Shown: positions 1-12,027 of the stretch, in pieces | How the letters are laid out: every line of letters starts with the position of its first letter | How positions within the stretch are numbered: the stretch's first letter is position 1 | The notes under the pieces: generated by a model | Told to the model about the DNA's origin: nothing | Seen by the model: the letters and a program-made list of their open reading frames with translations, nothing else | Database searches by the model: none | Translations under genes and position numbers: made by a program | Source of the DNA: a virus | DNA: 48,317 bases | IMG/VR virus record: IMGVR_UViG_3300033153_003941 | Span: 1 to 48,317 of that record | Strand: one strand, 5' to 3'

Positions 1-114
1 ATTTTCAATCTGTTCCCTTCTTGATTTACCACTACCCTTTGGGGTAGCAGAAAGCCAAGCAAGTTGCTTTACATAAATCTCAGCAACTTGTATTACATCG
101 TAAAAAAATTGGCG
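1..114. repeat. Terminal direct repeat, left copy
   Basis: The first 114 bases recur exactly at the right end (48204-48317). The repeat falls inside the tail chaperone coding region, and joining the two ends restores one continuous frameshifted gene. This shows the molecule is circular or circularly permuted, with a unit length of about 48,203 bp. The simplest reading is an assembly overlap of a closed contig, not true packaging ends. Confidence 0.9.
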
Positions 115-509
115 CGGTCACCAATGAAAGCATCAACCTGCTCACGTATCCACGGACGCTCCATATACAGGGTATAAGCAGCTTTCACAGAGAATTTAAC
201 AACCTCTCCATCAACTACAATTCCATCCCAGCCCATGGTACAAGCAGCAAGAAGCTCACAGGAATCTTCATCAGAAACACTGAAGTCACCTTTCCGTGAA
301 CGAGAGCGGGCTGCTTTAGCAATGCGCTTGGATTGCAATTCCCTTTGTTTATTGCGATAAGCAACAGAGTCAATGCCAGCAAGATTGATGACAATTGATT
401 TTTCATCATCGCCTTCTTGCATCAACACATCACCAGTTACTGGATGCTCAAGCTCAAGCTCTGCTCCAGCATCTGAACGCTTTTCCAAATCAATTGTTCC
501 TAAATCCAT
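93..509 (-). CDS. Tail assembly chaperone, zero-frame product (gpG-like)
   Basis: 138 aa, lying between the tail tube gene and (through the circular join) the tape measure gene, the usual place of lambda gpG-like chaperones. These bind the tape measure protein and guide tail tube assembly. The start ATG follows AGGAG by nine bases. The last codons read through a run of seven T (plus-strand 102-108) as AAT TTT TTT ACG ATG TAA. A -1 slip there opens a long second frame that continues at 48305-47856. Sequence is acidic at the N-terminus with a basic stretch near residues 55-72. Function is assigned from position and the slippery site, not from a strong motif. Confidence 0.8.
   Translation of the reverse strand: MDLGTIDLEKRSDAGAELELEHPVTGDVLMQEGDDEKSIVINLAGIDSVAYRNKQRELQSKRIAKAARSRSRKGDFSVSDEDSCELLAACTMGWDGIVVDGEVVKFSVKAAYTLYMERPWIREQVDAFIGDRANFFTM
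102..108 (-). other. Programmed -1 frameshift site, T_TTT_TTT
   Basis: In the chaperone zero frame the codons are AAT TTT TTT ACG, which gives the canonical heptamer T TTT TTT directly before the stop region. After a -1 slip the frame continues TAC GAT GTA and stays open for 149 codons, ending at 47856. The duplicate of this site is at 48305-48311. The predicted fusion is 285 aa (136 from the zero frame plus 149). Confidence 0.85.
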
Positions 510-535
510 GCTACAAACTCCTATTTAATCTTGAA

Positions 536-979
536 TTAAGCTTCCACGAGTGATTCAGCATCAACCGCAATCTCAATCACAGTAGTCTCAACAGCACCAG
601 AAGCAACACCACCAATCCCAGCTTTAACAACCTTGCCAGTGAAGTAACCAATGTCGCCAGATGCAAGCGCCAACTCAAATGAGTAACTTGCGGTAGCAGC
701 GAGAGCAGCCTGCAAAGCAACTTGACCGGTGTCAGAAGTAACACGACCAACAGTCAGAGTAATATTGGCAATGTCATATGTGTCCTTCAATTTCTGAGGA
801 TATGCACGACCAACAGATTGATGAGACACAATGTTAAATGCCTTGGCTAGTTCACCAACATCAATAACCTCACCAATGTCATCAAAAGACAGCGCGACAT
901 AGCCACCGGCATCAATAGTGGCAGGCGCGGCAGAATCCAAGCCCAGTGTAGTTCCAGTTGTTACGCTTACATCAGTCAT
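536..979 (-). CDS. Major tail tube protein
   Basis: 147 aa. It lies directly upstream of the chaperone gene and downstream of the tail terminator, the standard siphovirus order, and has the composition of a beta-rich tail tube subunit: many Val, Thr, Ala and Gly, no Cys, and a short acidic end (DAESLVEA). Tail tube subunits stack as rings around the tape measure. No specific catalytic motif is expected. The start ATG follows a GGAGGG-type ribosome site. The call rests on position, size and composition. Confidence 0.7.
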   Translation of the reverse strand: MTDVSVTTGTTLGLDSAAPATIDAGGYVALSFDDIGEVIDVGELAKAFNIVSHQSVGRAYPQKLKDTYDIANITLTVGRVTSDTGQVALQAALAATASYSFELALASGDIGYFTGKVVKAGIGGVASGAVETTVIEIAVDAESLVEA

Positions 980-997
980 TTTTAAACCCTCCAGGGA

Positions 998-1483
998 TTA
1001 ACGTGCTACAAAAGCTCGGTAATTTGACCGAGTTACTATTTGATAAAAACCACCATCAGATATTCCAGCACCTCTTGAATTCGATACGATTGAAACAGTT
1101 TGAAAGGCATAGGTCATTTTTCTACCTATTTTGAATGCCTCTAATATCTGCTCTGCTTTCGATTTCGCAGTAAACGCTGCTTTGTCTGATGGATACCTTA
1201 CAATCACTTGGAATAAGCCAGTGTGCTCATCCGAGTGGGCCAGGGAAAACTGTGTTCTGCCTGCTGGAAAATTCTTACATTCCAAGTAGGCATTTTGTGC
1301 ATTGGGCTTGTACACGCCAGAATAGTGAATGTAATCAGAAATGTCAGTGTCCCATTCAGAATAATTCCCATTCTCATGAACAATATCTAATTCCAAACCA
1401 GCGCTCAAAAGCTGCTCTATGAGCGCCTGGTCTATTTCAAGACCCTCACCAAGCACAAAGTCGGAAGTTATGATAATGCTCAT
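998..1483 (-). CDS. Tail terminator-like protein (DUF4128-like)
   Basis: 161 aa. The middle and end (about residues 90-160, beginning GLFQVIVRYPSDKAAF and then AEQILEAFKIGRK) resemble DUF4128 proteins, which sit at the tail terminator position in siphoviruses and cap the tail tube where it meets the head. The ATG overlaps the stop of the gene before it (ATGA), so the two are translationally coupled. Assigned from family resemblance and gene order. Confidence 0.6.
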   Translation of the reverse strand: MSIIITSDFVLGEGLEIDQALIEQLLSAGLELDIVHENGNYSEWDTDISDYIHYSGVYKPNAQNAYLECKNFPAGRTQFSLAHSDEHTGLFQVIVRYPSDKAAFTAKSKAEQILEAFKIGRKMTYAFQTVSIVSNSRGAGISDGGFYQIVTRSNYRAFVAR

Positions 1484-1851
1484 AATTTAGCAGCCCTTGT
1501 TTTTACAATTTGCTGAAGTCGCGCAACATTTCTTCCAACCATTGCATCTTCACGCTCATAAACAGCAGCATAAGAAAGGCTGTTTACAAAATAAGTAACG
1601 CCATCTGGAGAAGCAATTTTCTCAATGCGTGCCTTAACTTTTTTTCCATCAGGGTCAAGAGTCTTTAGGATGCGACGTGGCTTTGTCTTTTCCTGAATGC
1701 TCCAATTCCCTTTAAGCAATCCAGTATCAACACGAGTATCATCAACTGCTGAATTAAATAATTCAATTTTAATAGCACGACTGAGCTCACAAAGGTCTTC
1801 CTTGCCTTTTTCTGCAATCTTTTTAAGGTCAGCTGCCCAATTAACACTCAT
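1480..1851 (-). CDS. HK97 gp10-like tail completion protein
   Basis: 123 aa. It carries the family pattern: a helical N-terminus, then DTRVDTGLLKGNW (about residues 38-50), and later YFVNSLSYAAVYE (about 87-99). Proteins of this type join the head connector to the tail. Both ends overlap the neighbouring genes by four bases, part of a tightly coupled head-tail connector series. Confidence 0.7.
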   Translation of the reverse strand: MSVNWAADLKKIAEKGKEDLCELSRAIKIELFNSAVDDTRVDTGLLKGNWSIQEKTKPRRILKTLDPDGKKVKARIEKIASPDGVTYFVNSLSYAAVYEREDAMVGRNVARLQQIVKTRAAKL

Positions 1852-2201
1852 CGTCTTACCTGTACAAAGTAAACAACTGCTGTATCAGTTGGCTTAACAG
1901 TCTTGATGCTTACAACGCTCCAATCTTCACCACCAATAGTGGGCTTATCACTAGGCAGAATTTCATATTCAGAGCTACAAACCAACAGCCTATCACTAGC
2001 AAGAATCCGAGTATTGTCAATCATGTTATCTGGATAAGGCTTAATCAATCCCGTGGTGGTAACAGTAGCATCCGCTCCAGCAGTAACCGCGCCAGTAACA
2101 GGATCAATCTTTTCACCAGTCTCACGAGGTAGCACAACAGGGCCACCAAACTTAGTCAAAAGCCTGAGGGTGGTTGCTGCCATGCGATCATAAAAACTCA
2201 T
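1848..2201 (-). CDS. Putative head closure protein
   Basis: 117 aa, between the connector adaptor and the gp10-like protein. Predicted mostly beta, with a Pro/Thr-rich early segment and an ending VVYFVQVRR typical of small head-closure (stopper) proteins. It overlaps both neighbours by four bases. The role is inferred from gene order, as no signature motif is visible. Confidence 0.5.
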   Translation of the reverse strand: MSFYDRMAATTLRLLTKFGGPVVLPRETGEKIDPVTGAVTAGADATVTTTGLIKPYPDNMIDNTRILASDRLLVCSSEYEILPSDKPTIGGEDWSVVSIKTVKPTDTAVVYFVQVRR

Positions 2202-2707
2202 GCACGCACCATAGGTATGCTAACCAAGCCATTGCGCCTCAGCAAAGAGGCAAGAAGCGCATCGCCTTTGCTGCTCTTGCTCAGCTTTCTGCCGCTATCA
2301 TCAACAGCATACTCAACAGAAACAGCGCCTTCAACACGCTCTTTCTTAACAGCAGGATTTGGATTTAGTGAACGGTTCCATAAATCCTCTCCAGCATTAA
2401 TGTCAAGCGCAAATGCCATTTGGCAAAGGATGACTTGACGAGCAATTTCATCACTGGTCCAATACCACCCTTCAATTGTTAAGTCAGTCCGTGGGTGCGC
2501 CATTGATTGGTCGCGCTCAACTTTCGCGCCCTTCAAATTATCTTCATGCCAGCCAATATATTCAGCGGCCTTTCGCAACTCTACATCAGCACCATCAGCA
2601 TCAGCAACTGTTATGCCTAGTGTGGCAGCATAAGTAATGTAATCATCACGGGTTACATAGCTATCTGCGTTAGCAACTATGCTTCCATCTTCAATTATGA
2701 GTTCCAT
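2198..2707 (-). CDS. Head-tail connector adaptor (DnaT-like family)
   Basis: 169 aa. The N-terminus (IEDGSIVANADSYVTRDDY, residues about 4-22) followed by a helical segment with LRKAAEYIG (about 45-53) matches the phage adaptor family annotated as DnaT-like ssDNA-binding proteins. They form the ring below the portal. The ATG is one base from the stop of the upstream gene. A role in the head-tail joint is favoured over DNA binding by its place in the morphogenesis block. Confidence 0.6.
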   Translation of the reverse strand: MELIIEDGSIVANADSYVTRDDYITYAATLGITVADADGADVELRKAAEYIGWHEDNLKGAKVERDQSMAHPRTDLTIEGWYWTSDEIARQVILCQMAFALDINAGEDLWNRSLNPNPAVKKERVEGAVSVEYAVDDSGRKLSKSSKGDALLASLLRRNGLVSIPMVRA

Positions 2708-3453
2708 TATTGTGCGTTCTCCCCTCTACCAAACCAAGTTCCGCCAACAGTACAGCCTTTATCACTAGAGTGCGTCATCCCAATTAAAGTTTTCTCAGGG
2801 AATGGCTCTGATTCTGGAAAATTAAAGCCAAGCGCATTATCCTGCAGACCAATTGTTGAAAATGGTATAAAAATAAGCGGGTCATGGTATGAATGCGCAT
2901 CAAGACGATTGGCAACAAAATTCAACTCAGTCCGTGTCGCGGCTGTTCCGCTTATTGAACTTCCAACTGCACCTAGAATCGTAACAGTCTTCCCAGCAGG
3001 AACCATTCTGAAAGAGGATGAACAACGAACTTTATTTGCCTTGATAATGCTATAAGTCGTTCCAGCATTTGTGACTGTTATGTCACCAGCAGTTTTCTTG
3101 CCTGTGCCAACATCATGGATGTGGGTGCACTGAATCCACATAATATCTTCAGCAACGGTCAGAACAGGAGTCTCACCATCCATTTCAACATTTTCAACTT
3201 TGGGCATATAAGAGCCATTCAAATAATGAATTTGAAGAACTCTTGCGCCAGTGCCTGCAATATCATCTGCAGCATCATCTGAAACAACGGTCATCTGTAG
3301 GCCGCCAGCAGGAGGCAATGCTATCTGCCCATCAGGCCAAACTGGATAATCTTCTTCAGAGCCAGTAGAAGTGCGCACACCATAACTTGACTGATGTCTG
3401 GCGCCTGGCACTTTCCCTTTTGCTATTAATTGGTCATATGTTAGTTGGCTCAT
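2707..3453 (-). CDS. Structural protein of unknown function
   Basis: 248 aa from the ATG at 3453, which follows GGTGG; a GTG at 3471 is an alternative. The N-terminal segment (LTYDQLIAKGKVPGARHQSSYG) is followed by a beta-rich body with many Thr, Gly and Val. It sits between the capsid-associated coiled-coil gene and the connector adaptor, where many phages place head decoration or fibre proteins. I do not recognise a family. Four Cys are spread over the protein without metal-site spacing. Confidence 0.5.
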   Translation of the reverse strand: MSQLTYDQLIAKGKVPGARHQSSYGVRTSTGSEEDYPVWPDGQIALPPAGGLQMTVVSDDAADDIAGTGARVLQIHYLNGSYMPKVENVEMDGETPVLTVAEDIMWIQCTHIHDVGTGKKTAGDITVTNAGTTYSIIKANKVRCSSSFRMVPAGKTVTILGAVGSSISGTAATRTELNFVANRLDAHSYHDPLIFIPFSTIGLQDNALGFNFPESEPFPEKTLIGMTHSSDKGCTVGGTWFGRGENAQ

Positions 3454-3489
3454 TTCATCCACCACTTTCACAATAAAATGTCATCAATA

Positions 3490-3511
3490 TTGCCCTCTTT
3501 TCAGAAGGCAA
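3490..3511 (-). terminator. Post-stop hairpin, copy 1 (weak terminator or attenuator)
   Basis: Stem TTGCC/GGCAA extended by TCT/AGA, just after the stop of the 132-aa gene. It is closely related to the hairpin at 3969-3991, including the flank between stop codon and stem. No long U-run follows, so it may attenuate or protect RNA ends more than terminate fully. Confidence 0.45.
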
Positions 3512-3522
3512 TGGTGAGACAC

Positions 3523-3921
3523 TTACTTTTTGTCTCCTGCGGCGGCTTTAGAAGCGCCAGCAGGCTTCTTGTCGCCGCCTCCCTCGGTCTTTCCCTCGCC
3601 GCCCTTACTATCGGCCTTACTATCGGCCTTAGTAGCGGCTAGGGCGCTCTCAGAAGCCTTCAACTTTTCGGCCAATTCAGCATTTTCCTTGATCAACTCA
3701 GCGATTTTTGTTTGGTGCTCAGCAATAATTCCATTTGCCATTTTAGTAGCTTCATCAAGCTCAGCACTACAATCACACTCAGATTCACCAGCAACTTTCA
3801 GCGGAGCCTCCATGACTTCACCTTCACACAAAACGTGATCAGCAGTCATATCACACTCATTAATTATCATGAATCCTTGCTTATTGTCAGATTCAACTTT
3901 TACAGTTTTCAGTCGTGCCAT
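3523..3921 (-). CDS. Coiled-coil capsid-region protein with low-complexity tail
   Basis: 132 aa. The middle (about residues 55-98) is a coiled coil rich in Glu, Lys, Ala and Leu. The last 35 residues are a low-complexity Lys/Gly/Ala/Ser tail. Two Cys (CDC) lie just before the coil. Small Ala/Lys-rich proteins after the capsid gene are common and may be minor head or decoration proteins, but no family is recognised. The gene is flanked on both sides by near-identical hairpins, so its expression may be set separately from its neighbours. Confidence 0.55.
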   Translation of the reverse strand: MARLKTVKVESDNKQGFMIINECDMTADHVLCEGEVMEAPLKVAGESECDCSAELDEATKMANGIIAEHQTKIAELIKENAELAEKLKASESALAATKADSKADSKGGEGKTEGGGDKKPAGASKAAAGDKK

Positions 3922-3968
3922 GAATCACCTTCCTGTTAGCTTCACTTACGGTTAAAATGCTATCAAAA

Positions 3969-3991
3969 TTGCCCTCTCAAAGAGAAGGCAA
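3969..3991 (-). terminator. Post-stop hairpin, copy 2, after the capsid gene
   Basis: On the minus strand the stop codon of the capsid gene is followed by a stem TTGCC-TTCTC / GAGA-GGGCAA and a short run TTTT. This is a fair intrinsic terminator or attenuator, and would lower transcription of genes downstream of the capsid gene. Confidence 0.55.
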
Positions 3992-4002
3992 CGGTGAAGC
4001 AC

Positions 4003-5166
4003 TTATCCCAGAAGGACAATTCCGTGCTCAGACTTGACGCACTCATAACCCCATACAAGGGCAATTTCGTACTGCATCTGACGGTACTGAGCATACATGC
4101 TAATCTCAAAAGCCAGTCCAGAAACTGGGTCTTGAATAATCATGCGGTCAACAGCAGAGTCGCCCTGCTCAGGAAGAGCAGGGGCGCGGGTAGCCAGAGC
4201 GATGGCAGATGGGGCAAATGCCATGTTACGGGCAGAAGCAGCAACACCAGAAACAACCTGAGTTGCCTCAGTTGCAGCGCGCAGGCCAGGTTCTGCAATC
4301 ACAATGTTGCCAGTGGTAGAGTTACCAATGGTGACATCAGCAGCCAGCATGTACTTCTCAGTGTCACCAGCAAGAGTGATAAGATCACCAGCCACACCAG
4401 CCACCTCACCAGAGCCATCCGTGGTTACATTGATGGAAGTCTCGCCAACAGGCTCAACACCAGTAACGGTAACATTTGCAGTGATGACGTTGGAGCCAAA
4501 GCCCTGAACAATCTGACCAGATTCGCGGATAGCAAAGCCAGCTTTATCCAGAAGCACACCACGGGTCTGCATATCAGTGTTGCCAGCGATATCAGCACGG
4601 GATTGCTTACCAGAGAGGGTTGCACCAGCAGAGGTGTCCAGAACCAGGTTGTTACCAGTTGCAGGCGCACCATTGTCTTTCAGCAGCTTAGCAGCGAAAG
4701 AGGCATCAGTGAAGTCACCAGCAGTTGCAAAGGGAGTGGTTCCAGCAACGCCATAAGCACGACTGAACTTGACATGGAGAGAAGCAAGGTCAGCTTCAAC
4801 TTCATTGGTAAGGGTGCGCATGGCCTGAGCAAACTGGTTGCGCAGGATAACATTGTACTCAGCACCGTTGTTGTCCAGCATCAGGCGCTGCTCACCATTC
4901 CAGCGAACTGGAACACGACGCGCTTTGGTGATGGTCATGTCAACATTGCCAATGGTCTGATCACCATCATCAGGCGGAGTTACCGCAGGGGTGATATCAG
5001 TAGCGGCAGCAGTAGGGGCAACAGGAGAGCGAACAGTTTGGCCAACAGCCGCACGTTCAAAACCCATGTCATGAGTAACAGAAGGGATCAAGCCAGTCAA
5101 TTCACGGGACACAACATCCAGTGCATTGTAAAGCTCAACAGTGAGATTTGTGATAGTATTGGCCAC
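4003..5166 (-). CDS. Major capsid protein, P22 coat-like
   Basis: 387 aa. The start (ANTITNLTVELYNALDVVSR) and the following segments with ARRVPVRWNGEQRL (about residues 80-95) fit the P22 coat protein family of HK97-fold capsid proteins. The middle (about 200-300) is beta-rich with repeated Val/Thr/Gly, where the P22 type carries its inserted domain. The only usable start is a GTG at 5166: an in-frame stop lies four codons before it, and GAGGT is nine bases upstream. The scaffold gene lies upstream, separated by a 259-base leader that holds its own promoter and repeated hairpins. It is unusual for the capsid gene to have so large a structured leader. Confidence 0.85.
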   Translation of the reverse strand: MANTITNLTVELYNALDVVSRELTGLIPSVTHDMGFERAAVGQTVRSPVAPTAAATDITPAVTPPDDGDQTIGNVDMTITKARRVPVRWNGEQRLMLDNNGAEYNVILRNQFAQAMRTLTNEVEADLASLHVKFSRAYGVAGTTPFATAGDFTDASFAAKLLKDNGAPATGNNLVLDTSAGATLSGKQSRADIAGNTDMQTRGVLLDKAGFAIRESGQIVQGFGSNVITANVTVTGVEPVGETSINVTTDGSGEVAGVAGDLITLAGDTEKYMLAADVTIGNSTTGNIVIAEPGLRAATEATQVVSGVAASARNMAFAPSAIALATRAPALPEQGDSAVDRMIIQDPVSGLAFEISMYAQYRQMQYEIALVWGYECVKSEHGIVLLG

Positions 5167-5206
5167 GATTCTTTACCTCTATTTGTTGTTAATCGAGGCA
5201 AAGAAA

Positions 5207-5318
5207 AGGTCTGTGCCACGACAATGAAATGAAATCATCATCAGGCCACAGACCTGGGGTAAAGCCACGGACTTTACCACTTAAACTTTTAATCTAAAAC
5301 TTCAGCCACAGACTGAAG
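5207..5318 (-). promoter_or_regulatory. Structured leader of the capsid gene: three hairpins with one shared loop
   Basis: Read as minus-strand RNA there are three hairpins: 5318-5300 (CUUCAG / CUGAAG), 5278-5258 (GGUAAAG / CUUUACC) and 5256-5242 (CAGG / CCUG). The stems are unrelated, but the seven-base loops are UCUGUGG, UCCGUGG and UCUGUGG. A later segment at 5217-5207 (GGCACAGACCU) is complementary to the third hairpin and could open it. UCGUGG occurs twice more, at 5221-5216 and at 5168-5163, the last holding the capsid GUG start. This looks like a repeated binding motif or translational switch. I do not recognise it as a known RNA class. Confidence 0.7.
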
Positions 5319-5359
5319 CGGTACAAGAGCGAAATGCCTATACACTAGACCTATCCCCT

Positions 5360-5387
5360 AGTATATACTAATAGGGGATAAAGTAAA
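5360..5387 (-). promoter_or_regulatory. Capsid gene promoter with overlapping palindrome
   Basis: On the minus strand TTTACT (5387-5382) is followed after 16 bases by TATACT (5365-5360). This is the same promoter type seen six times on the plus strand. A 9+9 bp palindrome, TATCCCCTA and TAGGGGATA (5380-5372 and 5360-5352), spans the spacer and reaches into and past the -10 box, placed as an operator would be. It would give the capsid gene separate late transcription. Confidence 0.6.
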
Positions 5388-5425
5388 GTAGCAAAGTAGA
5401 AATATTTTAAATAAAAATTTAAAAT

Positions 5426-6169
5426 TTAATCAACAATTGTGACCTTCTCAACCACCACAATATTGCGCTGCTCAGATGGAGTAAGTTGATCAAAAGCAGC
5501 ACGCTTCATGGTCTTGCCGCTTCCACCTTTTCCTTCACCACTAGGCTTGCCACTTCCATTGGCAGAACTGCCCTTGATTATAGGCGCCAAGAATGAAATC
5601 TCAGATACCTCTGCCTTTAACTCATCAAGCGTTGCAGCCGATGGCTTTCCATCAAGCCCAAGAACCTTAATGATAGATTTTCCATCAACAATATCATTGT
5701 ATAGCCGTGGTTTGATGTGTGGTATCAATGCTTCTGAAGATCCTTCAAGTGCAATATCTACAGCCATTGAGATTGCTGCTGCGCCAACAGTAACATCCTG
5801 AATGATTTGATTAAGGCCAGCAACCTCATTCGCATTATTGCTATTTGCAAGCTCAAGCTTCTCGCTCCATGAAGCCTCAAGCGCAACAACATCACCAGAA
5901 GCACGAAGTGCATCCTCAACATCTTTTTTGGCCTTGTCTTCAGCATTTTTACGATGCTTTTCTGCCTCAGTGTGCTTGGTCTTGAGCAAGTCACGCTCAT
6001 CAGTCACAGTACTGAGATTGGATGTCATCGCCTCCATCTGCCCAGTCATTGTTGCGACTGTCGCAGTAAGCTCCTCAAGCGTTGGCCCGTCACCCTCTCC
6101 ATCGCCACGTGGGACAGAGCGCAGGGCAGAAGCAACGGCAGCAACAATCAACGGGTAATTCTTTTTCAT
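5426..6169 (-). CDS. Capsid scaffold protein
   Basis: 247 aa from the ATG at 6169, which has GAGG nine bases upstream. A long coiled coil (about residues 30-115, rich in Glu, Lys, Ala) is followed by a helical middle, a Gly/Ser-rich linker (about 200-222) and a basic C-terminal segment (TMKRAAFDQLTPSEQRN). This is the usual layout of internal scaffolds, whose C-terminal basic helix-loop-helix contacts the coat protein. It lies between the MuF-like gene and the capsid gene as expected. Confidence 0.75.
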   Translation of the reverse strand: MKKNYPLIVAAVASALRSVPRGDGEGDGPTLEELTATVATMTGQMEAMTSNLSTVTDERDLLKTKHTEAEKHRKNAEDKAKKDVEDALRASGDVVALEASWSEKLELANSNNANEVAGLNQIIQDVTVGAAAISMAVDIALEGSSEALIPHIKPRLYNDIVDGKSIIKVLGLDGKPSAATLDELKAEVSEISFLAPIIKGSSANGSGKPSGEGKGGSGKTMKRAAFDQLTPSEQRNIVVVEKVTIVD

Positions 6170-6192
6170 CTTCACATTCCTCTTTTGGATTA

Positions 6193-7251
6193 TTAAATTT
6201 TTGCTTTTTCAAAAGCAAGCGGTTCAAGTTTTCGCATTTCTTTCAGCGTTAATGGCTCAAAGTTTTTACCAAGTTGTAACTCAGCAAAACGATCAGCGCC
6301 TATGCCACCATTGCGCAAGAGCTTGCCTCTTGTTTTCCCAATGATAGAATCCTGTACTCCAGCGGGTTGTCTGCCCAGCCATGAATAGTATGTTTCTTTT
6401 GAAGACACTCTCTTCACCTTTCCAGTCACTGGGTCACGCGAAGACCTTGTAGCACCTTCGCTCAAAAATGAATAACGCTCATCAAGAGCTGCCGTGGTAG
6501 TGGTGCGGCAGTTAATGTGGAACGGCGGTCTTGGGCCTTTGTTTTTTGGAAAAGTTTTTCCATCTAGGCTTCTGCATATGCTACTTGTCTTTTCATCAAG
6601 AGTTGCGGAAATCCGAATGCGTGACACAACAGTGTCATTCTTCTCCCAAACTTCATTCCTAGCAACTTGGGCAGTATGGGCAAGGCCAGTGCGAACTATG
6701 TTATTCAAATCTTTCGCAGACACATCCATCAACCCAGATATATCACGCACTAATTGAGCAGTTGTTTTCCCATTCGCAAAACCAAGCCTTATTGCTCCAT
6801 CAACTCTGCTGATATTGCGTTTCGTCCATCCATCAAAGAATGGAGCAAGAAGCTGGCCTTGATATGGCCCAGTAACGCTCAAAGGCTGGGAATAAACAGC
6901 AGCCCTTAGTTGAGCATCACTAGGGATATCAAAGTCATAACCTTCAACGACATTGCCCAAAGACCTTACTTCAAAGCCAGCCTCATAATCTGCTAAGCCA
7001 ATGATTTGCTCTTTAAAATTACCTTTAATGCCTGAAGCAATGTTAGTGATCGTTTTATTTATCACTCTCAGCTTCTTGCGAAGTCGAGCGCGATTCCATG
7101 AAGTTATGTCACTATTTAACTCAGCTATTATAGCCCGTTTCAGCTTGTCAACAAAAGGGGCATAATCTTTTACAGCACTACTTTTGTAACGCTCTAAATA
7201 GACCGCATGCCGCACAGATTGATCAAGCAGCTGAGTAGGCGTTGAAGCCAT
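6193..7251 (-). CDS. Minor head protein, MuF-like
   Basis: 352 aa. The C-terminal half carries the MuF signature: SATLDEKTSSICRSLDGK (about residues 215-232) then PPFHINCRTTTTA (about 242-254), with the conserved Cys and His. MuF-like proteins attach near the portal inside the head and may be injected with DNA. The start overlaps the portal stop by one base. There is no fused toxin domain after the MuF core, unlike some relatives. Confidence 0.85.
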   Translation of the reverse strand: MASTPTQLLDQSVRHAVYLERYKSSAVKDYAPFVDKLKRAIIAELNSDITSWNRARLRKKLRVINKTITNIASGIKGNFKEQIIGLADYEAGFEVRSLGNVVEGYDFDIPSDAQLRAAVYSQPLSVTGPYQGQLLAPFFDGWTKRNISRVDGAIRLGFANGKTTAQLVRDISGLMDVSAKDLNNIVRTGLAHTAQVARNEVWEKNDTVVSRIRISATLDEKTSSICRSLDGKTFPKNKGPRPPFHINCRTTTTAALDERYSFLSEGATRSSRDPVTGKVKRVSSKETYYSWLGRQPAGVQDSIIGKTRGKLLRNGGIGADRFAELQLGKNFEPLTLKEMRKLEPLAFEKAKI

Positions 7252-8711
7252 TACTCTTTAACTCCTGCTTCACCCTCATCCTCATCCTTGGCATCGCTCA
7301 AATCAATACCATCTTCACCGCCAGTTCCACCAGCGCCTCCAGAGGCTGCTGCCTCCAACTCTTCAGCATATTCCTCAGCAGTTTTCTCTTCATCAAAGAT
7401 GCCATAGCCCTGCATATAGCGAACATAATCAGCCATCGGCACGCTTCCTCCCATGAAGCCAATGATGATTTCTTTCAATTCCTGCGGCGTTGCTTTTGAG
7501 TCAATGAAATCAAGATTTGGAATGTATTCAGATGTGTCATCTTCAACACCCATATATTTAGCAGCCCACTTAATGCACTTGGTGTAGGCATCGCCGATAT
7601 TTGAAGCAATCAGTGACAGCGGGGAGTGAAGCATTTCACGCTCACCAGAAGTCTGGTCAGCAGTTTTTGCTACACCACCTGGAGATATTTGACGCGCTCC
7701 AAGGCCAACCATCATGTCAATCTTATCTAGCATTGCCTGACGCACCATAGGATTGGGCGGGGCTGAGGCAAATCCAAATTGCCCATTCTCTGGAACTGCT
7801 AACATCATCCGTGAGCCTGAGTACATATTATTTTCTTTCATCAGATCAATATGCTCTTGATCCACGTTGCTCATCCATGGCTGGGCCTGTCCAGCAAACC
7901 AAACGCTGTCTTCAAAATCAGCACTATTGCGGAAGTGCGCAATATTAACATTTGCCATGGCCAGCATATTTGGAACATCAACATCAGGGTCATTGTTTAT
8001 TGCGCCAACAAAGGTGAATGGAATTTCATCAAATGCACCACCCTTTGCATCAACAGGAATTACCTCATCCCCTGCAGCCCATGTATCACCGCTCTTGGTC
8101 CATTTGCGTTCTTTATAAACACCTCCATCAAGAAACATTTCACGGACTATATCAACTGTCTTTTCTTCATAATTCTCAAATGTTACATCTTGATCAGAGA
8201 TAGTCACCAGCGTCAGTTTGCTCACTGAGCCAAATGTTTCAGTGTGCCAGTTATAAATGCGTGTTGGAGTAAGATGCTGAATAGTTGCAACATATTTCCC
8301 GCTGACTATATCTGCTCTTGAAATCTCACCCTCAACAACAGGGAAAGAGGTCACAAGGCCACAACGGCTTTTACCAATAACATCTTTAGCAACAATCTGT
8401 GATTGCTGATAGATAGAGTTGCCACGTCCATCAACATTCTTGGTAAAATACTCAAGACTTGCGTTGAGCGTAATCACCGGCGCTTTCTTAAACATCGTAC
8501 CAATCATTCCAGTAGTAGTCTGAGAAGTCAGCGCATAGAATACAGCACGCTCTTTGTAAGCAACATTACGGCTTTTATTCTCAGGAGAATCATCATCTGG
8601 ATTAAGAGTGATTAGGTGATCAGTTAAATTTTTCTGATCAATAATATCATCAATCTTTTTCCAGTTGTCAACTTGGCCATTATACTGGCTGTTCTTTGAA
8701 TCAATGGGCAT
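7251..8711 (-). CDS. Portal protein, DUF4055 family
   Basis: 486 aa, the usual length for this family. The N-terminal half has the family pattern (LTSQTTTGMIGTMFKKAP, about residues 61-78), and the middle carries IPFTFVGAINNDPDVD (about 250) and NIAHFRNSADFEDSVW (about 280). The end is acidic and Gly-rich. The portal forms the DNA gate to which terminase docks. It lies directly downstream of the large terminase and overlaps the MuF-like gene. Confidence 0.85.
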   Translation of the reverse strand: MPIDSKNSQYNGQVDNWKKIDDIIDQKNLTDHLITLNPDDDSPENKSRNVAYKERAVFYALTSQTTTGMIGTMFKKAPVITLNASLEYFTKNVDGRGNSIYQQSQIVAKDVIGKSRCGLVTSFPVVEGEISRADIVSGKYVATIQHLTPTRIYNWHTETFGSVSKLTLVTISDQDVTFENYEEKTVDIVREMFLDGGVYKERKWTKSGDTWAAGDEVIPVDAKGGAFDEIPFTFVGAINNDPDVDVPNMLAMANVNIAHFRNSADFEDSVWFAGQAQPWMSNVDQEHIDLMKENNMYSGSRMMLAVPENGQFGFASAPPNPMVRQAMLDKIDMMVGLGARQISPGGVAKTADQTSGEREMLHSPLSLIASNIGDAYTKCIKWAAKYMGVEDDTSEYIPNLDFIDSKATPQELKEIIIGFMGGSVPMADYVRYMQGYGIFDEEKTAEEYAEELEAAASGGAGGTGGEDGIDLSDAKDEDEGEAGVKE

Positions 8712-8723
8712 TTTCTACTCTCC

Positions 8724-10010
8724 TCAATTTGCGCTGCGTATTCCAGTGTTAACGATAATTGGTTTCTTGATTGGGAATTCAAACGCCACTGGATAACCAG
8801 AGGCATCATTTTGGTGATCATTTCCAGACTTCTTATCAGGCTCACCATTCTTGTCATAAACCTGCTGTTCTAAATCAGTTGCTACATCAGGACACATAGC
8901 GTCATTAACCCAAATGTATCGCTCTCTGAAGCCCTTATTTACAGCAAGAACTCTGTCCTTAACAAATGGGTTTTTCTTGTTGGCCTTTATCTTAAAGCCA
9001 GCCAATTTAAGCAATGCTATATCAGACTCACTAGCATTTGCGGATTTGCGATTCTTTCCAGAGGCATCTGGATACATTATAATCTTGTGGCCATTGTACC
9101 GTGAATGGAGAGTCTCAATGAGCGCTGGTGTATCCAGCAAATCAGATAATTGCGCTACTGCGTGCCAACCATTATCACGCTTGACGTATATGGTGCTGGC
9201 CATCTTACCAACGTTGAAATCTTGCCCAATAAATAAGTCTTCACCCTCACGCATTGTTTCTGTAGAGCGATTGCGTTCACGATCATAGTCAGAGTACACA
9301 ACACCGCTGGTAAGGTTAACAAATTTGCCCATCAGATACGCTTCAATCAACTGAGCGGGATATTGACTCTTCAACTCCTCAATATAATCAGCAGGAAGAT
9401 TCTTTGCGTTGCTATATGTGCTCATTTGAATGAGGCGGCTATTCAAAAGCTTCTCATCACTGCGTTCATCAAACAGCTTGTATGTTGCCTTAAACCCTTC
9501 AGGGGTAGTGGTAACATACAACTGATTAATGCGCCCTGCTGGATTATCTTGACGCAAACGCGCTGATGTTTTTCTGAATACTTCCAGTGCCTTATCAATA
9601 GGCAGTATATCAAACTCATCCAGTACCGCATCAGCAACTTCCCAACCAACAATCTTTTCAGGATTATCCATGGTACGGCAATAGATTTTACCAAGCCCAC
9701 TTATATCAACAATATGCTCGCTTTTGTTAATGGTATAATCCAAATCCATAGCAGGCAGGAACTTATCCATTGCTGGATAAAAGATGTCACGGATGAGGGG
9801 ATAAGTTGGAGCAAGATATGCCTGATCAATGCCAGGGGATTGCATCATATTCTGAAGCAGCCGTGATAAGGCAACGCGGGTCTTTCCAGCACCAAATCCA
9901 GATACCAGAGCAACGTTCTTTTCAGCAGCGTGAAGAAAATCATGTTGTGGTTTTGAGAAGCCAAATTTGACCTCTTCAATCACATTAGATTTTCTGCTTG
10001 TTCTTGTCAT
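8724..10010 (-). CDS. Terminase large subunit
   Basis: 428 aa. Walker A is SGFGAGKT (residues 37-44) and Walker B is AVLDEFD (about 128-134). The nuclease domain shows IGQDFNVGK (first Asp), MYPDASGKNRKSANASESD (second Asp region) and a final HQNDASGY. The protein cuts and pumps DNA into the head. The ATG overlaps the preceding stop (TGATG). It is somewhat short but has all the expected parts. Confidence 0.9.
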   Translation of the reverse strand: MTRTSRKSNVIEEVKFGFSKPQHDFLHAAEKNVALVSGFGAGKTRVALSRLLQNMMQSPGIDQAYLAPTYPLIRDIFYPAMDKFLPAMDLDYTINKSEHIVDISGLGKIYCRTMDNPEKIVGWEVADAVLDEFDILPIDKALEVFRKTSARLRQDNPAGRINQLYVTTTPEGFKATYKLFDERSDEKLLNSRLIQMSTYSNAKNLPADYIEELKSQYPAQLIEAYLMGKFVNLTSGVVYSDYDRERNRSTETMREGEDLFIGQDFNVGKMASTIYVKRDNGWHAVAQLSDLLDTPALIETLHSRYNGHKIIMYPDASGKNRKSANASESDIALLKLAGFKIKANKKNPFVKDRVLAVNKGFRERYIWVNDAMCPDVATDLEQQVYDKNGEPDKKSGNDHQNDASGYPVAFEFPIKKPIIVNTGIRSAN

Positions 10011-10249
10011 CAGTCTTGCACATTCTCATCATAGATGCGACAGCCAACATGCTTTACTGCACCCATGAGGGTAAAGACATTTGCCTTATTCTCAAAAGCA
10101 TAGTCAGTAACTATTGTGCCATCAGTACACTCAATTGCTATTGCTATGGACTTTATCTCGCCATTCTTTGAGCGCTCAAGCAATTCCTCAAAAGACTTTG
10201 CTGTAAAAGACTCTCCACGAAGATTAACAACATTATTTTTGCTACTCAC
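10010..10249 (-). CDS. Small protein upstream of terminase, unknown
   Basis: 79 aa, start taken at GTG 10249 with GAGG six bases before it. The protein looks like one mixed alpha/beta domain (FEELLERSKNGEIKSIAIAI, then TDGTIVTDYAF). It overlaps both the gene before it and the large terminase gene. Its position would suit a terminase partner, but I see no helix-turn-helix and do not claim that it is the small subunit. Confidence 0.55.
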   Translation of the reverse strand: MSSKNNVVNLRGESFTAKSFEELLERSKNGEIKSIAIAIECTDGTIVTDYAFENKANVFTLMGAVKHVGCRIYDENVQD

Positions 10250-10424
10250 CAGGCACCTCACTATTAAAGGCATCATGCTCAGCCTTATCAATAACCCAGC
10301 GCTGCTCAACAACAAAGTCAAGTGGCTCTGCCCTGAGCAGAATATTTTTCAAATTATCAGTTGCAATATTGCTCCTCAGGCCATTTTTACTAACCAGCAG
10401 CAAATAATATTTCTTTTTAAACAT
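10242..10424 (-). CDS. Small hypothetical protein
   Basis: 60 aa from ATG 10424, preceded by GGAG at six bases. It begins with a basic segment (MFKKKYYLLLVSKNGLR) and ends acidic. It overlaps the next gene by eight bases, so the two are coupled. No family recognised. Confidence 0.55.
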   Translation of the reverse strand: MFKKKYYLLLVSKNGLRSNIATDNLKNILLRAEPLDFVVEQRWVIDKAEHDAFNSEVPGE

Positions 10425-10464
10425 AGTAATCTCCATCACCAATTAGCAGAAATTTGACATGGCT

Positions 10465-10680
10465 TTAATGCTCACGCCAATCAACTCCATTCACCAAATT
10501 ATATTTATCAAAATGACCAGCTTCTTCATTGCGCTTGAATTGCTCAGAAGGACTCATGATAAGATTGTAGTTTGGGTACCACGCAACTCTGTCTAATTCA
10601 ACCCTCACCAACATTCCCCAGAAAGGAGTGAATGAGAACTCACCGCATTGAGATGTGCTACCCACCTTCAGAGACCTCAT
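10465..10680 (-). CDS. Small hypothetical protein overlapping rusA-like gene
   Basis: 71 aa from ATG 10680, with AGGA eight bases upstream; TTG 10701 would add seven residues. It overlaps the end of the RusA-like gene by 23 bases in another frame. Rich in aromatic residues (FTPFWG, WYPNY), with a charged end. No family recognised. Confidence 0.45.
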   Translation of the reverse strand: MRSLKVGSTSQCGEFSFTPFWGMLVRVELDRVAWYPNYNLIMSPSEQFKRNEEAGHFDKYNLVNGVDWREH

Positions 10681-11119
10681 TGATATAATCCTGTAATTCA
10701 ATAACCATTTTACGCATTGAATCTATATCATGTGACTCTGGACTAACAGTAATGTGGATTGGATTCCGAAATGGCATTATGCTGATATACACTTCACCCA
10801 TAGCATATGGCGCCAACTTCTCAACACTAAACTTTCTGACAAGGGCATCATCTTCCCAGACGCCTGCTTTTGTCATAGCATCAAATAATGCCTTAATGAA
10901 GTTGTCGCCATCCCACTTACCATTCCGTGGAGGCGCTAACTTGATATCAACCTCAACCTCTGTATCAATACCAAAACTAAGATTGCCCTCAGTGACAAGG
11001 CGCTGGACTTCTTCTTTGTATAAACGCCCTTTCTTGCTCATCACTTTACGCCCACGAATACAGACATAATATGTATTGAGGGATGGAGGCCAAGGAAGGC
11101 GGAATTCAACTTGGCTCAT
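10658..11119 (-). CDS. rusA: RusA-like Holliday junction resolvase
   Basis: 153 aa. The RusA core is clear: KWDGDNFIKALFDAMTKAG (residues about 69-87) followed by VWEDDALV (88-95), giving the conserved acidic residues (D70, D72, D80, D90/D91) that bind magnesium, and the Lys in the DN-x-x-K pattern. The early PWPPSLNTYY is also typical. It cuts four-way DNA junctions before packaging. It sits a few genes upstream of terminase, coupled to the upstream gene by ATGA. Confidence 0.88.
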   Translation of the reverse strand: MSQVEFRLPWPPSLNTYYVCIRGRKVMSKKGRLYKEEVQRLVTEGNLSFGIDTEVEVDIKLAPPRNGKWDGDNFIKALFDAMTKAGVWEDDALVRKFSVEKLAPYAMGEVYISIMPFRNPIHITVSPESHDIDSMRKMVIELQDYINEVSEGG

Positions 11120-11532
11120 AACGTCACCTCATGAGTAGCAATCCAAGACCTCAAACGGAGCTCATCATGGAGCACAACATCTTTGTCATGAGCCACATAA
11201 TGCTTCTTTCCTTCACGCCCTTGATTGGGGTCAAAGATAAATTCATTATTCCAATCATCAATAATGAGGATGATGCAGTGATTGAGGCCAGGGTAATTGA
11301 GTGATGGGACAGCCAGCAGATATGCCTTTCCAACTAACAGAGTCTGTGGCTCAGCAATCATCTGTGAGCAGGTAATGAAATTGCGATGTAAGTATTCAGT
11401 AATAGTCAACAGACCCGTGAAGTGGCTGTGATGAAACTCTTCAACAACTTCTTCAACTGGCCTTCCCATTAACATTGCTAGGCATGCACTGATACATGCG
11501 TCATCATGAGGTTGCTGCTGTAGCTCAATCAT
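11116..11532 (-). CDS. C39-like papain-fold protein
   Basis: 138 aa. The pattern QQPHDDACISACLAMLMGR (about residues 5-23) puts a Cys at the start of a helix, and LNHCIILIIDD with EFIFDPNQGREG (about 90-112) supplies the His and the Asp-Pro strand of C39-type papain-fold peptidases. In phages these small proteins are of uncertain activity. The ATG overlaps the stop of a tiny membrane protein gene; a GTG at 11547 is a less likely start. A second papain-like protein is at 26171-26563. Confidence 0.65.
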   Translation of the reverse strand: MIELQQQPHDDACISACLAMLMGRPVEEVVEEFHHSHFTGLLTITEYLHRNFITCSQMIAEPQTLLVGKAYLLAVPSLNYPGLNHCIILIIDDWNNEFIFDPNQGREGKKHYVAHDKDVVLHDELRLRSWIATHEVTL

Positions 11533-11615
11533 GAGTGTTCCCACCACAGAAATAAAACAACTGCTGTGAATACAAATGCGTATTCATGAGGGTGCTCTTT
11601 CATCCACTTTCCCAT
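11529..11615 (-). CDS. Tiny membrane protein (28 aa)
   Basis: A 28-aa frame with a strong ribosome site (ACCGGAG, eight bases before ATG), the same extended site used by the early plus-strand genes. Residues 9-25 form one membrane segment (YAFVFTAVVLFLWW) after a charged N-terminus (MGKWMKEHPHE). Its stop overlaps the next start (ATGA). It is short, but the ribosome site and coupling support it. Confidence 0.6.
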   Translation of the reverse strand: MGKWMKEHPHEYAFVFTAVVLFLWWEHS

Positions 11616-11628
11616 CACACTTCTCCGG

Positions 11629-12027
11629 TTATTTTTCCAACTCAAAAATTACTTTCTTAACAGCGCCCTTCACTGTATCGCCATCATCCCCATTTCTTAT
11701 CTCGTGAAGCAATTTAGCTGCTGCTAATTTATTTGCTTCAATGTCAGAGTCTTTCATGACCTTGCCTATACTATCTATTACTTGACCGTTGACTTCTACC
11801 TCTGTAAAATCATAAATTTTTCGCAGCGCAGTTTCTTGTTCTTCAGATATTTTTCCGTGGTAGATGTGTGCGTCAAGCATTATCATTGCTTCTTCAAATG
11901 AGCCTGTGGCAGCAACTCTTTGAAAGTCACCAATAGCAGCTTTTAAATCAACATCATGAAGAGTCAATTTTTGAATATTTACACTCTGGGCAATCTTCAT
12001 TGAAACCAGTGTTGGGAACATGCTCAT
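11629..12027 (-). CDS. Hypothetical helical protein
   Basis: 132 aa, predicted helical, acidic in the middle with a Lys-rich end (VKGAVKKVIFELEK). It is the first gene after the AT-rich repeat region at 12028-12379. It could be a DNA-binding or packaging-related protein given its position upstream of the terminase series, but nothing in the sequence proves this. Confidence 0.5.
   Translation of the reverse strand: MSMFPTLVSMKIAQSVNIQKLTLHDVDLKAAIGDFQRVAATGSFEEAMIMLDAHIYHGKISEEQETALRKIYDFTEVEVNGQVIDSIGKVMKDSDIEANKLAAAKLLHEIRNGDDGDTVKGAVKKVIFELEK

Follow-up and report, generated by a model that had tools for sequence, protein, structure and literature searches.

Results

The capsid gene leader and its three hairpins

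The window, by which we mean the whole 48,317-nucleotide stretch of the viral record IMGVR_UViG_3300033153_003941, encodes a P22-type major capsid protein on the minus strand (4003-5166, GUG start; PHROG 283, E = 1.3e-81; Pfam P22_CoatProtein) and, upstream of it on the same strand, a head scaffolding protein (5426-6175; PHROG 206, E = 2.3e-24). Three minus-strand hairpins with a shared loop have the scaffold gene on their 5' side and the P22-fold capsid gene on their 3' side, and the region is best explained as the 5' leader of the capsid mRNA. The extra upstream hairpin H1 (5318-5300) folds as CUUCAG(UCUGUGG)CUGAAG. H2 (5278-5258), GGUAAAG(UCCGUGG)CUUUACC, corresponds to P1, which has homologues in related phages, and H3 (5256-5242), CAGG(UCUGUGG)CCUG, corresponds to P2, the putative antiterminator, with an energy of -6.1 kcal/mol when folded alone and a conserved spacing from P1; the loop-to-loop distance between P1 and P2 in the window is 19 nt. 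The first-pass annotation, made from the sequence alone, had described three hairpins with unrelated stems and a common UCYGUGG loop, and all three are present, far beyond chance expectation.

The folding of the 201-nt leader has a z-score of -6.6, and none of 200 shuffled sequences was equally stable. TCYGTGG is present in 22 copies in the window versus 7.9 expected, and only the three leader copies lie within strong hairpins. On both strands of the 48 kb, loop-sharing hairpin pairs no more than 200 nt apart were confined to the leader locus and one unrelated plus-strand pair. Two UCGUGG sequences had also been put forward as copies of the motif, and both are coincidences: the one at the capsid start (5168-5163) consists of the GUG and a conserved alanine codon, and the one at 5221-5216 lies inside the 3' arm of the terminator described below and is unconserved. 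Since most relatives begin with AUG GCN, the start-codon UCGUGG is rejected as a functional element. Loop-loop kissing through self-complementarity is permitted by wobble pairing for CCGUGG but is unconserved (the L007 relative has CGGUGA), and the frames of small upstream ORFs starting at the loop GUGs are, as judged by eye, unconserved. DNA operator palindromes are disfavoured, since the motif occurs in a single orientation, includes U-G pairs and differs in its arms from copy to copy.

A consensus scan found a candidate sigma70-type promoter, TTTACT-16-TATACT, at 5387-5360 on the minus strand, within an inverted repeat; it is weak by consensus (P = 0.26), which counts against reading the leader as a switch. 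In the related leader L212 a comparable palindrome contains TTTACC-17-TATAAT (P = 0.04), a perfect TTGACA-16-TATAAT is present in L230/L009 (P < 0.005), and good promoter-like sequences lie upstream in L003, L005, L212, L213, L219 and L222. The inverted repeat of the window, UAUCCCCUA...UAGGGGAUA (5380-5352, minus strand), overlaps the promoter-like -10 element and has a similar counterpart at the same place in L212; it may serve as a DNA operator or form another hairpin in the RNA.

Neither the window nor any of 16 related loci reached the gathering threshold of an Rfam family, megablast of window positions 1-12000 against phages returned no match, and a description of such a leader was not found in the open-access literature. 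Elsewhere in the window, the plus-strand segment 28009-30896 encodes dATP triphosphohydrolase-like and nucleoside deoxyribosyltransferase proteins of nucleotide metabolism together with a FabG-like reductase, and DNA polymerase and ligase genes adjoin it.

Conservation of the loop on differing stems

Capsid-protein searches yielded 144 unique capsid upstream regions, most of them metagenomic fragments. The scaffold and capsid genes are separated by at least 80 nt at 57 of these loci and by less than 80 nt at the other 87, which have the same coat and scaffold and no leader. Twelve of the leaders share the loop C-NGU-G, closed by U-R or G-C, on differing stems: those of the window, L002, L212, L003 (L214), L005 (L218), L007 (L226), L022 (L371), L040 (L372), L344, L213, L009 (L230) and L008 (L229). 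P1 homologues with a different stem are found in L002, L003, L007, L022, L040 and L212. When every copy of CNGUG was counted, unselected for pairing, at least four contiguous flanking pairs were present at 20 of the 29 copies in the 12 leaders, versus none of 151 in downstream coding DNA of the same phages, so the motif is kept in related phages. Among 21 extracted hairpins 93.7% of cells are paired, with 30 double changes and both-side changes at five of the six pairs (0/500 shuffles; slid controls at most 48%); these rows were chosen beforehand as hairpins, and the unselected CNGUG count is the cleaner test. Position 1 of the loop UCNGUGR is U in 17 of the 21 hairpins and G in the others, and the U-R and G-C versions of the outer loop pair coexist within one leader in L213 and L344 and occur once each in L009. 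The covariation of the hairpins and the conservation of the loop in relatives bear out the earlier proposal that stems and loop are both under selection.

The spacing of the hairpins is also conserved. The loops of the last two hairpins lie 18-20 nt apart in nine of the 11 leaders that have both, the exceptions being L009 (33 nt) and L008 (22 nt), and a third, upstream UCNGUGR hairpin lies 41-43 nt off in the window, L212 and L007. Across 120 leaders, a strict loop-sharing hairpin pair was detected in 18, compared with a mean of 0.5 for shuffled sequences and none in 119 coding controls. A search of viral contigs with the exact pattern CAGGTCNGTGGCCTG recovered the leader anatomy in none of the matches examined among the 119 stretches listed, and those inspected looked like chance coding matches. 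A gapped terminator pattern retrieved 12 stretches, of which the true ones were all already-known coat leaders and the remainder chance.

Competition between P2 and a terminator-like helix

A later strand complementary to the third hairpin had been predicted to be capable of opening it. This strand (GGCACAGACCU, about 5216-5207) lies in the 3' arm of an intrinsic-terminator-like helix (5255-5207, minus strand, -26.5 kcal/mol) whose 5' arm consists of the 5' arm and loop of P2, and P2 and the long helix are mutually exclusive, as predicted. The helix is followed by the U-rich tract UUUUCUUU (5207-5200), a modest run that counts against the switch reading; runs of U5-U7 follow the stem in L003, L005, L040, L344, L008, L004 and L219. 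P2 alone has energies of -3.4 to -6.7 kcal/mol across the NGU leaders and the long helix -15 to -32 kcal/mol, the latter followed by U4 to U7 in most NGU phages. The arms of the long helix covary in nine phages, with pairing at 62 of 63 positions (permutation P = 5e-5); in all nine, the variable base N of the loop forms a Watson-Crick pair with the terminator arm (P = 3.5e-4). As both folds covary, the P2 hairpin and the terminator are both under selection. In the window, P2 is part of the minimum-energy fold until the 3' arm of the terminator emerges; from then on P2 can be kept in place of the terminator only at an equilibrium cost of about 14.7 kcal/mol, so that a switch would require either kinetic control or very tight binding.

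L212 and L022 lack both the U run and a downstream partner for the P2 loop, and their loops are intact. The loops are thus not kept merely for pairing with the terminator arm, and conservation on that account alone is ruled out. The terminator form is absent from L212, L022 and L213; the output is consequently not uniform, which also counts against the switch reading. Downstream of the terminator, a hairpin formed by UUCUUUGCCUC...GAGGUAAAGAA (5205-5169, minus strand, -14.2 kcal/mol) hides the Shine-Dalgarno sequence, and a hairpin containing the Shine-Dalgarno region is found at the same place in 13 of 13 leaders folded (-10 to -18 kcal/mol). The close relatives L004/L215 and L219, which have no UCNGUGR loops, contain a terminator-overlapping hairpin GGG(AGAAGCR)CCC that is possibly another loop type of the switch.

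Other loop types in the same coat family

Leaders of the same anatomy, preceding genes of the same coat family, carry other common loops: NGC (L223, L234, L239, L249, L309, L352 and L056), NAG (L221, L228, L244 and L247), NGG (L232, L314 and L222) and GGAU (20 leaders and cultured phages). Assignment to these groups was partly visual, and under a strict rule a single clear hairpin remains in some leaders. Neighbouring hairpins in the four groups are spaced 20-25 nt apart, the GGAU spacing being about 23-25 nt in most members, or 17 nt if the nearer GGAT is counted. By the most parsimonious count, loop type has changed at least 13 times on the capsid tree, and several of the changes fall inside one clade with 75-82% identical capsids. 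The loops within one leader stay alike and switch together, and spacing and position are kept.

An exact anti-Shine-Dalgarno sequence (CUCCGG/CCGGAG) falls within or touches the 5' arm of the middle hairpin, 77-83 nt upstream of the start codon, in nine of 15 NGC, NAG and NGG leaders (L223, L228, L232, L234, L247, L309, L314, L222 and L221), in an Alpha-like clade. Its position at that arm suggests that the mutually exclusive partner in these nine is sequestration of the ribosome site and not a terminator, and they appear to represent a translational form of the same switch.

The GGAU hairpins occur in Klebsiella phages 5 LV-2017 and ST405-OXA48phi1.3, Salicola phage CGphi29, Rhizobium phages P106B and RHph_X2_24, and Caulobacter phage DMCA, which has one clear hairpin. 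In these leaders, 47 of 58 copies of GGAT have at least three flanking pairs versus 3 of 190 in coding DNA. GGAU tandem hairpins about 23-24 nt apart precede the P22-type coat genes of L290, L292 and L294 in Pseudomonas genomes and of L445-L447 and L450-L452 in cultured phages. The record containing the GGAU leader L241 (G026) encodes in addition a CsrA homologue (6051-6215, E = 1e-20).

Discussion

A proposed capsid switch

The attribution of the repeated motif to a reader that controls capsid translation stands in part. A protein reader is likely, and the direct output in the window clade is more likely to be transcription, through attenuation, than translation by itself, because the competing strand and the U run together form an intrinsic-terminator-like helix. 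We propose, with somewhat better than even confidence, that the capsid leader is an ANTAR-like tandem-hairpin attenuator in which an oligomeric and probably phage-encoded protein holds the last hairpin and so turns the capsid gene ON. P1 and P2, with H1 in addition in the window, would be tandem binding sites in which the recognised feature is the loop C-NGU-G, closed by U-R or G-C, and the stems only present the loop. When the ligand is absent, the longer hairpin would take over the P2 strand, end in the U run and halt RNA polymerase short of the capsid gene; the hairpin that follows would also hide the ribosome site. A dimeric or oligomeric RNA-binding protein gripping P1 and P2 at their fixed spacing would allow P2 to persist, in which case the terminator could not form and capsid protein would be made.

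That one loop sits on varied stems at a conserved spacing, that both folds covary, that the long helix has the form of a terminator and that the leader precedes the same gene in relatives can all be read directly from the sequences. The proposal further supposes that the terminator is functional, that P2 would be the ON state and that the reader would be a protein, probably phage-encoded. The concerted switching of loops at constant spacing points to an oligomeric reader that is probably encoded by the phage and changes with it. Among about 30 early and middle genes scanned against PHROG, no obvious RNA-binding regulator emerged. The ANTAR domain PF03861 is absent from 22 phage records including that of the window and CAT_RBD PF03123 from 23 records including one Pseudomonas genome, some of the records in each set being fragments; CsrA is encoded in one of 26 records, and a csrA gene is absent from the window record.

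Comparison with known leader systems

The closest likeness is to the ANTAR-responsive leaders of eut, nasF and amiE, which are read by EutV, NasR and AmiR. In ANTAR leaders, the loops of P1 and P2 have residues in common, P2 overlaps the terminator and both hairpins are bound by a dimer (PMC3369936, PMC8934654). The tandem hairpins with different stems and common loop residues, the importance of spacing, the overlap and exclusion of the terminator by P2 and the dimer thought to hold both hairpins are alike, and the capsid leader likewise has tandem P1 and P2 hairpins on unrelated stems at a set spacing, with a P2 that excludes an intrinsic terminator. The loops differ: ANTAR hexaloops have A1 and G4, whereas the capsid-leader loop UCNGUGR is an NGU triloop closed by C-G. 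The capsid leader also has two to three sites and a hidden Shine-Dalgarno sequence, varies in loop identity among relatives and precedes a phage coat gene. It would lie outside the ANTAR family, as the A1/G4 hexaloop rule fails and the phage records contain no ANTAR domain, although an ANTAR protein of the host is conceivable as a reader.

Judged by sequence, the capsid leader is not an ANTAR, LicT or CsrA system. The RAT antiterminators of LicT, BglG and SacY resemble it in that a protein-stabilised hairpin excludes an overlapping terminator; however, RAT is a single hairpin whose internal stem loops are read by the CAT domain, whereas the capsid leader has tandem hairpins with a conserved apical loop, and no CAT_RBD was found. 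CsrA/RsmA dual-site leaders likewise have two hairpins with one loop motif, spanned by a dimer, and the GGAU members resemble them; the GGA in the loop is absent from the UCYGUGG loops of the window and present only in the GGAU group. The coat-protein operator of the ssRNA phages is a hairpin and provides an analogy for reading by a virion protein. As there, a hairpin stands near the start of a phage gene and reading by a virion protein is conceivable, but the present leaders belong to dsDNA phages and have tandem sites and a terminator overlap.

Alternative explanations

If the coat protein, or the scaffold, itself read the loops, the leader would match coat synthesis to the supply of scaffold or procapsid. 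Such autogenous control seems unlikely to us, for all that the leader precedes the coat gene in every member and that switching loops need a phage-borne reader, structural genes being common to all members. The four NAG phages (L221, L228, L244 and L247) share the coat residues MAF/MVF-S-R-N, extending to the motif MAF/MVF-S-R-N-A, even though L221 is sister to an NGC phage; the column permutation value for this link, P = 0.013, is not tree-corrected, and the pattern is only a lead. NAG-type coat residues occur in leaderless phages too, many phages have the same coat and scaffold without the leader (the 87 of 144 loci with a gap below 80 nt), and a coat protein acting as reader would imply positive feedback if binding turns coat synthesis ON. 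Loop-linked columns sought in the coat, the scaffold and neighbouring genes gave a weak signal confounded by the tree.

The hairpins might need no protein at all. HK022 put is made up of two stem-loops of about 70 nt and requires no protein factor (PMC9378689). It works in cis, on RNA polymerase and distant terminators, with long bulged stems and a triplex, whereas here the stems are short and simple and the terminator incorporates the second hairpin. Both have two adjoining stem-loops near the start of a phage transcript, ahead of terminators, and tandem hairpins could conceivably bind RNA polymerase directly; a fixed polymerase surface would not favour loops that vary freely between related phages, and we regard a put-like antiterminator as quite improbable. 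There is about as little to recommend a passive role, in which the hairpins shield or insulate an abundant mRNA at its 5' end and the loops are read by no factor. Many mRNAs are stabilised by 5' hairpins, and capsid mRNA is abundant late, but stability needs neither the same loop on unrelated stems at fixed spacing nor a terminator that destroys the third hairpin. Least probable of all, and by a verdict of very unlikely, is that host CsrA or RsmA reads the leader, an idea most plausible for the GGAU members, which mostly place GGA in loops 23-25 nt apart (17 nt with the nearer GGAT). For CsrA, the optimal spacing of two bridged GGA hairpins is above 18 nt (PMC7652899). Against this, the loops of the window and of the NGC, NAG and NGG groups contain no GGA, the ACA before GGA that is invariant in SELEX is missing here, and GGAU leaders are found in Rhizobium and Caulobacter phages as well.

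Implications for phage capsid production

Extending the attenuator proposal to the whole set, we place slightly less than even confidence in a widespread new family of capsid-leader switches, with concerted loops, a co-evolving phage regulator that is possibly a virion protein, and gating by either a terminator or the Shine-Dalgarno sequence. To our knowledge, how tailed phages time and dose coat protein against scaffold is largely unexplained beyond a few models, and the capsid leader RNA would offer a concrete and mutable switch for coat timing and dose. The presence of the GGAU form in cultured Klebsiella, Rhizobium, Salicola and Caulobacter phages means that testing can begin now. The concerted change of loops within a leader would make RNA-protein co-evolution directly measurable, and such loops might yield orthogonal RNA-binding proteins and antiterminator parts.
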